Source of the DNA: an uncultured Opitutaceae bacterium
GTDB taxonomy: Bacteria > Verrucomicrobiota > Verrucomicrobiia > Opitutales > Opitutaceae
Direction of reading: 5' to 3'
DNA: 52,740 nt
Assembly (NCBI GenBank): GCA_903929355.1
Contig: CAIYUN010000029.1
Span: forward strand, 1-52,740
The position numbers were made by a program, and so were the translations under genes. Within the stretch, counting starts at the first letter, position 1, and each line of letters starts with the position of its first letter. Below the pieces are notes generated by a model. The model was not told the origin of the DNA and did not search any database. It saw only the letters and a program-made list of their open reading frames with translations. Positions 20,922-24,091 of this stretch are shown piece after piece.

Positions 20922-22136
20922 GTGCCCGACCCAATTCTCCTCGTGCCCTGGCAAAATACTTTTTCACGCACTCTGGCCATACTGGTGCTGGCGGGCACGG
21001 CCCTGCCCGGGGCGTGGGGTGACGCCAGTCCCGGATTCAAGGAATGCCAGCCGGGCCCGTGGGGCCGGATTGAGTATCAGACCATGTATCTCTCGGCCCC
21101 CGACGCGATCCTCGAGGAGTTTCCCATGCCCAATCCGGAGCCGCGCTGGTGTTTCGCCGACTGCTCGCCGGAGGCCGTGCGCGCGACGTTGACTGGGGCC
21201 GGGCTGGATCCCGTCGTGCGCGACCAGCTCTTCGCCGACCCGCGCGCCAAGCGCGACGAGGAGGGCGTCTTCACCGTGTTCCCCACGGTGGCCGAGGTGG
21301 ATGCGCTCAAGCCCGCAGTGCGCACGGCCATCTACCACGAGCTCGCGAAATACCCACAGAACCCCTATCATTACGAGCCGATCGTCGTGCCCGACGGCGA
21401 CGTGGACGCCTGGTTGCACGGCACCGGCCTGACCGACAGCGTCGTCAGCCTCATCCGCTCGGCCACCTACCGCGACGGCGACGCCCTGCTCTTCAGCGAT
21501 TTCCGGTCGCTCATCAGCCACGCCGCCAACGACAACGAGGCCCGCCGCTGGATCAAGGCCCTGACCCGCACCCGTACCGTCGTCGCCTACCTGCGGGTGG
21601 ACGAGACCGACGACCTGCCGGCGCTCCGCCGGTATTGGAGTGCCAACTACCACCGCAAGGACTCGCTGCCGATGCTCAACGCCGCGGCCGATCTGGCCGG
21701 GGGCGGCCGGCTCGACCTCGACCACCTGCTGCCGCCGCTGCCGCGCCGGTTGCTCGACTCGTACACCACGCCCGAGCTCGAGCGCAACGGCCAGACCCCC
21801 AACTGTCACTGGACCTCGCTCAATTTCTTCAACTACACCGAAAAAAATGTGTTTCTCGACCTCCGGTTCGCGGCCAGCAAGGTGCTCGCGGATTACGACA
21901 AGGTGACCGGGCCGGCCTCCTTCGGCGACGTGCTTTTTTTTCTGGATGAGAAGGGGGACGCCTTTCACTCCTGCGTCTTCCTCGCCGACGATCTCGTCTT
22001 CACCAAGAACGGCGGCAATACGGTCATGCCCTGGATCATCAGCAGCCTGGCCGATGTGAAGCAGCTCTACCTGCACAACAAGCCTGGTGCCACCGTCGCG
22101 GGCTACCGCCGCCGCTGGCCCGAGGAGGACAACTGA
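20922..22136 (+). CDS. Exported NlpC/P60-like cysteine peptidase, putative
   Basis: A 404-residue protein with a GTG start and an N-terminal hydrophobic export signal (about 12-33, ending GAWGD). The first 270 residues are not recognised. The C-terminal ~130 residues have the order of an NlpC/P60 domain: a Cys at the start of a helix (NCHWTSLNFFN), then GDVLFFLDEKGDAFHSCVFL with a conserved-looking His, then VFTKNGG. Such enzymes cut peptidoglycan stem peptides in the periplasm. Assignment rests on motif order only, and activity is unproven. Confidence 0.78.
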   Translation: MPDPILLVPWQNTFSRTLAILVLAGTALPGAWGDASPGFKECQPGPWGRIEYQTMYLSAPDAILEEFPMPNPEPRWCFADCSPEAVRATLTGAGLDPVVRDQLFADPRAKRDEEGVFTVFPTVAEVDALKPAVRTAIYHELAKYPQNPYHYEPIVVPDGDVDAWLHGTGLTDSVVSLIRSATYRDGDALLFSDFRSLISHAANDNEARRWIKALTRTRTVVAYLRVDETDDLPALRRYWSANYHRKDSLPMLNAAADLAGGGRLDLDHLLPPLPRRLLDSYTTPELERNGQTPNCHWTSLNFFNYTEKNVFLDLRFAASKVLADYDKVTGPASFGDVLFFLDEKGDAFHSCVFLADDLVFTKNGGNTVMPWIISSLADVKQLYLHNKPGATVAGYRRRWPEEDN

Positions 22137-22160: not shown

Positions 22161-22194
22161 AAAAAACGGCGCCATCCCGCGAGGGATGGCGCCG
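22161..22194 (-). terminator. Rho-independent terminator after glutamine synthetase
   Basis: Perfect 12-bp stem CGGCGCCATCCC/GGGATGGCGCCG with a 4-nt loop at 22167-22194. It is followed on the minus strand by a run of T (22166-22161). It lies 30 bp after the glutamine synthetase stop and also separates the convergent NlpC/P60-like gene. Confidence 0.93.
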
Positions 22195-22224
22195 TGGTCA
22201 AACGGGTCGGCGGATGCGTCCGGC

Positions 22225-23259
22225 TTACTTGGTCGGGACGCTCTGACAGGTCTTCACGATGCGGCCGGCGACCAGATACGGGTCGGCGGCGGAGTTCGGC
22301 CGGCGATCCTCGAGATAGCCCCGGTAGCCGTTGGCGATGAAGTTGACCGGCATGCGGATCGAGGCGCCGCGGTCGGACAGGCCGTACGAGAACTTGTCGA
22401 TGGACTGGGTCTCGTGCAGGCCGGTGAGGCGCAGATGGTTCTCCGGTCCGTAGACGGCGATGTGCTCGTCGATGTTCTTTTTGAAGGCGGCCATGAGTTT
22501 CTCGAAGTATTCCTTGCCGCCCTTGTCGCGCAGGAACTTGGTGGAGAAGTTGGAGTGCATGCCGGAGCCGTTCCAATCGAGCGGCTGGTCAAACGGCGCG
22601 AGGATGGGCTTGCAGCGCCACTCGATGTCGATGCCGTAGCTTTCGCACAGGCGGGCGAGGATGTAGCGGGCGACCCACATCTGGTCGGCGGCGTTCTTCG
22701 AGCCCTTGCCGAAGATCTGGAACTCCCACTGGCCCTTGGCGACCTCGGCATTGATGCCCTCGAGGTTGATGCCGGCGTCGAGACAGATGTCGATGTGCTT
22801 CTCGACGATCTCCCGCGCAACACAGCCGACGTTTTTGTAGCCCACGCCGGTGTAGTAGGGGCCCTGCGGGCCGGGATAGCCGCCCTTGGGGAAGCCGAGC
22901 GGCGAGCCGTCCTTGAAGAAGAAATACTCCTGCTCGAAGCCGAACCAGGTGTCCGGATCATCGGGGATGCTGGCGCGTGAGTTGGAGGGATGCGGCGTCT
23001 TGTCGTCCGGCATGTAGACCTCGCACATCACCAGCACGCCGTTCTTCCGGGTGCTGTCGGGATAGACCGCGACCGGGTGCAGCTTGCAGTCGGAGGTTTT
23101 GCCTTCGGCCTGCTGCGTCGAGCTGCCGTCGAAGCCCCAGATGGGTAGGTCGGCGAGCTTGGGGAAGCTGGAGAATTCCTTGATCTGCGTTTTGCTGCGG
23201 AGGCTCGCGAGCGGCTTGTAGCCGTCGAGCCAGATGTATTCCAGTTTGTATTTGGCCAT
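22225..23259 (-). CDS. glnII: Glutamine synthetase, type II (eukaryotic-like)
   Basis: A 344-residue cytoplasmic enzyme making glutamine from glutamate, ammonia and ATP. It is the short GSII form: IWGFDGSSTQQAEGKTSDC near the N-terminus, FGFEQEYFFF (metal ligands), GINAEVAKGQWEFQIF, the NGSGMHSNFSTK segment, and GASIRMPVNF near the C-terminus. GSII forms an octamer or decamer and lacks the adenylylation loop of GSI. A sigma-54 promoter and an upstream palindrome lie in front of it and a strong terminator behind, so expression is probably nitrogen-controlled. Confidence 0.97.
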   Translation of the reverse strand: MAKYKLEYIWLDGYKPLASLRSKTQIKEFSSFPKLADLPIWGFDGSSTQQAEGKTSDCKLHPVAVYPDSTRKNGVLVMCEVYMPDDKTPHPSNSRASIPDDPDTWFGFEQEYFFFKDGSPLGFPKGGYPGPQGPYYTGVGYKNVGCVAREIVEKHIDICLDAGINLEGINAEVAKGQWEFQIFGKGSKNAADQMWVARYILARLCESYGIDIEWRCKPILAPFDQPLDWNGSGMHSNFSTKFLRDKGGKEYFEKLMAAFKKNIDEHIAVYGPENHLRLTGLHETQSIDKFSYGLSDRGASIRMPVNFIANGYRGYLEDRRPNSAADPYLVAGRIVKTCQSVPTK

Positions 23260-23305
23260 GGTAGCTTGGGTTTTGTGTCAGGTTGTGAGGTGTGGAAAAG
23301 CGCCT

Positions 23306-23321
23306 GTCGGCCCGGGCCGAC
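23306..23321. repeat. Perfect 16-bp palindrome in the glnII leader
   Basis: GTCGGCCCGGGCCGAC lies between the predicted transcription start and the ATG of glnII. It could be an operator or a leader hairpin. No protein partner can be named from sequence. Confidence 0.5.
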
Positions 23322-23346
23322 GCTGAGGCGGTGGAATGGCGAAAAA

Positions 23347-23362
23347 AGCACTTCCTGTGCCA
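23347..23362 (-). promoter_or_regulatory. Sigma-54 (-24/-12) promoter of glutamine synthetase
   Basis: On the minus strand: TGGCAC (23362-23357), 5-bp spacer AGGAA, GTGC (23351-23348), followed by a T-run. The sigma-54 consensus is TGGCAC-N5-TTGC. The invariant GG and GC have the correct spacing, and one base of the -12 element differs. Transcription would start near 23336, 77 nt before the glnII ATG. Sigma-54 control of glutamine synthetase is well known in proteobacteria. Confidence 0.8.
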
Positions 23363-23455
23363 GTGGCAAAGGGAATCTTTTTGGACGGGTTCCCAGGGGG
23401 GAGCGCGCTGCCGTACCCGCCGAAGCCTTGCGCGAAGGCCGGGACCCAACGCGCT

Positions 23456-23478
23456 GAACCGGTTGGGTCAACCGGTTC
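23456..23478. promoter_or_regulatory. Palindromic upstream activating site candidate
   Basis: Perfect 10-bp arms GAACCGGTTG and CAACCGGTTC separated by GGT. The centre lies about 131 bp upstream of the predicted glnII transcription start, where enhancer-binding proteins for sigma-54 promoters usually bind. It is also 157 bp before the kinase-like gene on the other strand. Sequence differs from the enteric NtrC site. Confidence 0.6.
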
Positions 23479-23493
23479 CACCTGCTGACAACA

Positions 23494-23564
23494 CGACGGG
23501 GGCGTCGCGTCCCCAGTTTCCGGAGTCCGGCGGTCTGGAAGATGGAGCCGCGACGCCCCCGTCG
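23494..23564. repeat. GC-rich inverted repeat (CGACGGGGGCGTCGCG)
   Basis: Perfect 16-bp arms at 23494-23509 and 23549-23564 separated by 39 bp, ending 59 bp before the kinase-like gene. The arms continue as imperfect matches (TCCCC against TGGAGC). Either a REP-type element or an attenuator-like hairpin in the leader of the kinase-phosphatase pair. Confidence 0.75.
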
Positions 23565-23623
23565 CGGTCTGCCCGACAGGCCTTGCCATCGACCCCGGAG
23601 TCGCGGACTCTGCGGTCTTTCCC

Positions 23624-24091
23624 ATGCACGAAATGAAGGACACCGTCCGCGCGCTGGTGCGAATCGGCTATGACGGTCGGGTGCACAAGACTTTTCGCGG
23701 CCACCTCGCCCGGGAGCGGTTTGAGAACGAGGTGCGCATGCTCCGCCATCTGGAGGACCGCGGCTGCAATTTTGTGCCCCGGCTCCTGGAGGTTCATCCT
23801 GCCGAGCTGAAGATCATCACCACCAACTGCGGCTCCCTGGTGGAGCATCTCGGCGCGGAGCACATGCGGGAGCTGTTTGCCGAGCTGGCACAGTTTGGGG
23901 TCCGCCATGACGACCCGTTCATGCGCAATGTCACCTACCGCCAGTCCGACGGCCGCTTCTGCATCATCGACTTCGAACTGGCCACGCTGCTCGAACCCGC
24001 TCCGCCACCCGGCCCGCCCGCGCCCGGCGGTTCGCCGGGAAAGTCCACCCCCGCCCCGCCCCATGCCCGCCCGCCCCGCCCCGCCCATTGA
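23624..24091 (+). CDS. Minimal protein-kinase-like protein
   Basis: A 155-residue soluble protein. Residues 1-125 show a shortened kinase fold: a beta-strand pair ending VHKTF (possible ATP lysine), a helix FENEVRMLRHLEDRG (possible alpha-C glutamate), then HDDPFMRN aligned with HRDLKPEN and IIDFELA in place of DFG. The catalytic Asp and the metal-binding Asn and Asp are present, but the C-lobe after DFE is missing and replaced by a Pro/Gly-rich tail. Closest known relatives would be small LPS/Kdo-kinase or RIO-like kinases. Its 3' end overlaps the PP2C gene by 29 bp, suggesting a kinase-phosphatase pair. Confidence 0.8.
   Translation: MHEMKDTVRALVRIGYDGRVHKTFRGHLARERFENEVRMLRHLEDRGCNFVPRLLEVHPAELKIITTNCGSLVEHLGAEHMRELFAELAQFGVRHDDPFMRNVTYRQSDGRFCIIDFELATLLEPAPPPGPPAPGGSPGKSTPAPPHARPPRPAH

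Follow-up and report, generated by a model that had tools for sequence, protein, structure and literature searches.

The type II glutamine synthetase (GSII) gene of an uncultured Opitutaceae bacterium raises the question of whether sigma-54 control of glutamine synthetase, which is well described in Proteobacteria, also operates in the Verrucomicrobiota and, if so, where its activator might act. The gene lies in a 52,740-nt stretch of DNA analyzed here at its full length (the window), which constitutes contig C29 of a 3.80-Mb draft genome that is 96% complete. This gene, glnII (22225..23259, minus strand), codes for a 344-aa protein with Pfam Gln-synt_N and Gln-synt_C domains. Its top NCBIfam model is GlnII (NF041605), matched over nearly the full length at 377.5 bits, below the cut-off of 500; the assignment to GSII is made because of its 71.9% identity to the GSII of S. 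meliloti 1021 (pSymB) and not because of that cut-off. The nearest named relatives of the protein come from Opitutae/Opitutaceae MAGs, and it is 96% identical to the product of one related locus, L008. An ORF at 20922-22136 is convergent with the 3′ end of glnII, which is therefore probably transcribed alone as a monocistronic message. Between the two convergent ends lies a perfect 13-bp inverted repeat with a 4-nt loop (22166-22195), possibly a terminator shared by both genes.

A profile search of the genome with PF00120 (Gln-synt_C) retrieved a single place, which is this GSII. For 60 family genomes, we assigned the matches to classes from their scores and frame lengths (GSII, about 30-68 bits; GSIII, 74-89; other types, 278-467). 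GSII-class matches stand alone in 39, the genome of the window included, and one genome (G008) returned no glutamine synthetase match. If the promoter lacks basal activity, most members of the family would depend on sigma-54 to make glutamine, and where it drives the sole glutamine synthetase, rpoN should be essential unless glutamine is supplied.

An initial annotation of the locus had proposed a sigma-54 promoter on the minus strand, one base off the -24/-12 consensus and correctly spaced, followed by a leader of 77 nt. We recovered this element, TGGCACAGGAAGTGCT (23347..23362, read from 23362 to 23347 on the minus strand), with one mismatch from TGGCAC-N5-TTGC, and the distance from the predicted +1 (position 23336, about 12 nt behind the GC of the -12 box) to the ATG at 23259 is indeed 77 nt. 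Matches to this consensus with at most one mismatch number 5 in the window versus 4.4 (SD, 1.7) in 20 shuffles, and those with up to two mismatches number 44 versus 66. Since shuffled versions of this GC-rich window have them as frequently, a single match proves nothing, and it is position and conservation that carry the case. From 577 confirmed candidate glnII loci, the best 80 were taken, all but two of which (L060 and L061) include upstream sequence, leaving 78. In the 79 upstream regions formed by the window and these 78 relatives, TGGCAY-N6-TGCW occurs 51-200 bp before the ATG in 73, against a mean of 0.11 and a maximum of 2 over 79 regions in 100 dinucleotide shuffles, and it is kept in 20 of the 24 regions that remain once BLAST-similar ones are removed. 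The exceptions are L016, with the same motif at -55, outside the range, and L066, L071, L076, L079, and L086, which are about one base off. Within the 47 Opitutaceae-like regions (the window, L008-L050, and L052-L054, a set defined by hit rank and not all titled Opitutaceae), TGGCA and TGCT are invariant in every one, and across all 79 sites the GG and GC are 12 bp apart; both counts come from an alignment of the best-scoring site within 150 bp, a choice that favors the motif and of which the shuffle test is independent. The expectation that the element recurs upstream of glnII in relatives is thus borne out, and, judged by this conservation, it is real and a conserved promoter of the sigma-54 type.

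The predicted 5′ leader of the glnII mRNA (23260..23336, minus strand), placed by its spacing from the -12 box, also has a folding excess. It contains a predicted 5′-proximal stem-loop (23301..23330, minus strand) with a minimum free energy of -16.9 kcal/mol, the z score of the whole leader being -1.49. In 50-nt windows placed at the predicted +1, the mean z is -2.02 in the 47 Opitutaceae-like glnII loci, -1.57 in the 32 other glnII loci, and -1.14 in 14 amt/glnK transcripts, and it falls to near zero 30 nt to either side of that position (0.18 at both -30 and +30 in the 47). A folding excess that begins at the predicted +1 lends indirect support to that start; its presence in the amt/glnK leaders as well means that mRNAs of this kind may have it in general. 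In the 10 rhizobial-type leaders considered below it is weak, with z below -1.5 in 3. Leaders aligned by sequence, in sets of 46 and 12, yielded no consensus structure from which covariation of the hairpin could be read, and two alignments of four leaders gave one doubly changed pair each, one of them including the stretch of L059 taken from a wrong start. A structure drawn from one of four Akkermansiaceae-type leaders has 2 pairs changed on both sides, a number reached by 129 of 500 shuffles, and 79.8% of its cells paired, a value reached by 4 of 500 on a measure that favors a structure taken from a row. The leader hairpin is thus predicted from its excess of stability. An Rfam scan of 23100-23700 gave two matches, both far below their gathering scores.

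As such a promoter requires, the genome encodes rpoN (TIGR02395, 405 bits, above the cut-off), and across the family rpoN is present in 165 of 171 genomes of at least 90% completeness; the 6 in which it was not found are all draft assemblies with about 130 to 580 contigs. A PF00158 profile search of the same genome returned six places, three of which are complete response-regulator activators of sigma-54 with a REC-AAA-HTH architecture (L002, L003, and L004, with GSFTGA or GAFTGA loops); of the others, L005 has, by reading, no GAFTGA loop, and two are weak matches. The best NtrC match is L002 (G000:C22:9223-10827), an orphan NtrC-like response regulator with the REC-AAA-HTH arrangement and a GSFTGA loop, which aligns with TIGR01818 over its full length at 482.8 bits, below the cut-off of 558.6. 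A homologue with at least 62% identity is found in 39 of 41 family genomes, including that of the window, and G022 and G103 have distant homologues only. Beside L002, no NtrB or histidine kinase gene was recognized in 14 kb of ORFs inspected by reading rather than with HMMs.

The motif also precedes other genes of nitrogen metabolism. The 3.8-Mb genome has four PII genes, two of them in tandem (G000:C81:40828-41643, C36:21992-22327, and C38:64799-65134). A genome scan for TGGCAYRNNNNNTGCW returned 14 places, versus 17 in a backwards control, and hence there is no genome-wide excess; 3 of the 14 precede nitrogen genes, namely, glnII, the amt-glnK operon on C36, where the motif stands 238 bp before the Amt ORF, and the tandem PII pair on C81, where it stands 144 bp before glnK. 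The third amt-glnK operon, on C38, lacks a site ahead of amt, the highest score there being 16.2 of 23.4, and C38 as a whole has no strict match. We further analyzed 20 glnK-upstream stretches from 19 family genomes, which are best-matching loci and not a random draw. In 12 of them, an Amt-like or GlnK ORF is preceded, at a distance of 31-187 bp, by a site scoring at least 19.5 of 23.4, against a shuffle expectation of 0.59 in 20 stretches of 200 bp, and the other 8 have no such site before a nitrogen gene. The Amt-like ORFs of L189, L198, and L199 are ammonium transporters by Pfam, and the remaining ones were named by reading. Together, rpoN, the four PII genes, the three activators, and the motif before amt-glnK and glnK suggest a sigma-54 nitrogen regulon, and the glnII, amt-glnK, and glnK operons look like its members. 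With the 73 of 79 glnII regions, rpoN and these amt and glnK sites also support the annotated control of the GSII gene by a sigma-54 promoter. A further one of the 14 places in the genome scan (L132, G000:C40:17846-17861) is a sigma-54-like site 27 bp upstream of an ORF whose product, by reading, resembles a flagellar basal-body rod protein.

The same annotation had placed the activator of this promoter on a perfect 10-bp palindrome about 131 bp upstream of the start. The inverted repeat itself, GAACCGGTTG-N3-CAACCGGTTC (23456..23478), is present and centered 131 bp upstream of 23336; this distance would suit an enhancer, and a perfect dyad, even one that is a repeat, could be recruited as an activator site. 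Against such a role, it behaves as a dispersed sequence. At up to 3 mismatches, it is found at 7 places in the genome versus 1 for a reversed control; at up to 2 mismatches, it is found at 5 places here and at 4 in one of five congeners (G172), with none in the other 55 of the 57 genomes searched. Of the six other copies in the genome, five (L119, L120, L121, L122, and L124) have the 3′ end of a long ORF no more than 65 bp away, and the position of L123 is ambiguous. Among the 78 relatives, no 400-bp glnII upstream region matches the palindrome with fewer than 7 mismatches, so that the conservation expected of an activator site failed to appear. Nor is a palindrome of this kind rare in the window, which has perfect inverted repeats (arms, ≥9; gap, ≤8) at 8 distinct places. 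That the sigma-54 activator binds the palindrome is, in our estimate, extremely improbable, and we rejected this repeat as an enhancer on account of its dispersed copies and its lack of conservation upstream of glnII. The conserved sequence around the -24 box poses a different problem. In the Opitutaceae-like loci, conservation runs on upstream of that box as TTC-N3-TTGCC-N-C (23363..23375, minus strand), which the window has at 9 of 9 informative positions. Of the 47 Opitutaceae-like glnII regions, 42 have at least 7 of the 9 informative letters, a number that none of the 32 remaining glnII regions and none of the 14 amt/glnK promoters reaches; by these counts, it is an element new here and specific to Opitutaceae-like glnII. 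Since its TTGCC resembles a -35 box, the conserved sequence could be taken for an operator or a sigma-70 promoter and not for a sigma-54 promoter. We regard this as very unlikely: GG and GC keep their 12-bp distance in all of the best-scoring sites, even allowing for the choice that favors it, the same sigma-54 motif stands before amt and glnK without the upstream TTGCC part, and the column counts, by reading, show nothing like a TANNNT -10 box 16-18 bp away from TTGCC. An overlapping sigma-70 promoter was likewise rejected for want of a fitting -10 in these counts.

Within our preferred reading of a sigma-54 promoter, TTC-N3-TTGCC-N-C is probably the operator of a further regulator specific to glnII, a prediction drawn from its distribution. 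A promoter that combines sigma-54 with such a second regulator would add to the preferred reading and is compatible with it; we hold this combination as a tentative proposal whose chances we put a little short of even. The second regulator might perhaps maintain basal expression of the sole glutamine synthetase or keep the promoter blocked when nitrogen is in excess. The confinement of the element to Opitutaceae-like glnII favors it, as does the standing of GSII as the sole Gln-synt_C match in the genome and, by score class, in 39 of 60 family genomes. Against it, no protein is known to bind the element, and its conservation in one family may partly reflect shared descent, although columns -17 to -31 in the 47 regions are near random, with some conservation again at about -32 to -34. 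Searches for the site of the activator itself gave little. The known NtrC motifs TGC-N11-GCA and GCAC-N-GTGC show no enrichment above shuffles upstream of glnII, the former being present in 2 of the 47 Opitutaceae-like regions versus 3.4 in shuffles, with none in the window. A search for known NtrC sites and dyads ahead of glnII, amt, and glnK brought up a single signal clearly above shuffles, a CATG dyad found in 11 of the 47 Opitutaceae-like glnII regions.

The palindrome is more readily accounted for by the history of the intergenic region. It is part of a stretch with partial copies elsewhere in the genome by BLAST (23393..23484) and is followed by a second inverted repeat of a dispersed GC-rich family (23490..23570), recovered by inverted-repeat search and BLAST. 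When 23378-23623 was compared with the genome by BLAST, it had 65 matches, the self-match among them, which cover both the palindrome stretch and the inverted repeat at 23494-23564. On the far side lies a divergent, kinase-like gene of 155 aa (23624..24091, plus strand; Pfam APH at 29.5 bits, just over the cut-off of 23.2), and a motif search finds such a gene at this place in 47 of the 79 regions, comprising 42 of the 47 Opitutaceae-like ones, the window included, and L055-L059. CTTGCCA (23582..23588, plus strand) may be a -35-like box of this gene; TGGCAAG is aligned in L008, L009, L026, L050, and L053, and a similar 7-mer is found somewhere upstream of the -24 box in 29 of the 47 Opitutaceae-like regions. 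The starts of glnII and of the kinase-like gene are 364 nt apart in the window versus 244 nt in L008, and the extra sequence aligns over the repeats. In our reading, the palindrome region arose when repeats were gained, specifically in this lineage, between two divergent promoters. In its short palindromic units, several dispersed copies, and one tandem array, the repeat presumably resembles the REP/REPIN elements. The tandem array, at L152 1273-1420 (G000:C25:4272-4419), has four copies of a 37-bp unit with the AACCGGTTGAGGTCAACCGGTT palindrome.

We return to the preferred reading, which we consider highly probable: glnII has a sigma-54 promoter that would answer to an NtrC-type nitrogen-responsive activator within a regulon shared with glnK and amt-glnK, and the palindrome is a bystander repeat. 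As a mechanism, sigma-54 RNA polymerase would transcribe glnII from about 23336, driven by an NtrC-type activator whose response to nitrogen status we infer and for which L002 would be the likeliest candidate. The glnK and amt-glnK operons would be part of the same regulon, a further glnII-specific regulator would probably act at TTC-N3-TTGCC-N-C, and the palindrome would lie by chance, as a dispersed repeat, between the two divergent promoters. Overall, this appears to be a sigma-54 nitrogen promoter outside Proteobacteria, ordinary in kind and solid in evidence, for which the enhancer had been mistaken. The sole-synthetase setting and the new element by the -24 box are the parts most worth an experiment.

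The enteric sigma-54 nitrogen regulon consists of glnA-ntrBC and glnK-amtB. As in that regulon, the genes under the motif here are those for a glutamine synthetase, PII, and an ammonium transporter; unlike in that regulon, the synthetase is GSII instead of GSI, no ntrB was recognized among the ORFs read beside the NtrC-like gene, and there are no enteric-type NtrC sites. In literature covered at title and abstract level, with most subscription journals outside it, we found no account of glnII being transcribed from a sigma-54 promoter in Verrucomicrobiota. The main text of a comparative sigma-54 study has no occurrence of Verrucomicrobi-, Opitutus, or Akkermansia (PMC3162934), and excerpts of a report on a verrucomicrobial methanotroph with GSI mention ntrB and several ntrC genes (PMC5623727).

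A closer parallel is offered by the rhizobia, where, according to excerpts of two sources, glnII of S. meliloti is NtrC regulated (PMC10746234 and PMC8829014). The GSIIs of ten plasmid loci, nine alphaproteobacterial records and one labelled Roseateles, have 69.0 to 72.5% identity to that of the window. Nine of these 10 rhizobial-type glnII loci have a strong -24/-12 site at 92-113 bp upstream of the start, and none was found at the tenth, L227, or at the actinobacterial L224. The window is thus like rhizobial glnII (S. meliloti and R. leguminosarum) in having a -24/-12 element at the same distance and a GSII that is 69 to 72% identical. It differs in its kinase-like divergent gene, in the extra element at the -24 box, and in having no recognized NtrC site; further, GSII is the only glutamine synthetase found here, whereas S. 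meliloti also has GSI, as stated in part of PMC8829014. Because the same promoter stands at the same distance in rhizobial glnII, it probably shares descent with the gene, and on these comparisons glnII and its promoter are probably of common descent in rhizobia and Opitutaceae, which bears on the origin of rhizobial GSII.

As to the direction of transfer of GSII between the phyla, a tree with no outgroup groups the 10 alphaproteobacterial-type sequences as one clade among the verrucomicrobial ones (SH-aLRT, 97). When one actinobacterial outgroup is added, its own branch being very long (2.75), the root comes to lie among the rhizobial sequences, and the 76 Verrucomicrobiota rows form one side of a branch (96). 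Excerpts of a published analysis place alphaproteobacterial GSIIB within Verrucomicrobia (PMC2978018). A wider proposal is that Verrucomicrobiota and Alphaproteobacteria share GSII together with its sigma-54 promoter as a single inherited unit, to which Opitutaceae, where GSII is mostly the sole glutamine synthetase, would have added the operator by the -24 box and the structured leader, making that synthetase wholly sigma-54 dependent. We think this conceivable and lean against it; if true, the textbook rhizobial glnII circuit and that of Opitutaceae would have a common origin. At the position where the window has the divergent kinase-like gene, R. leguminosarum has gstI, which excerpts of one source describe as an inhibitor of GSII translation (PMC8829014).
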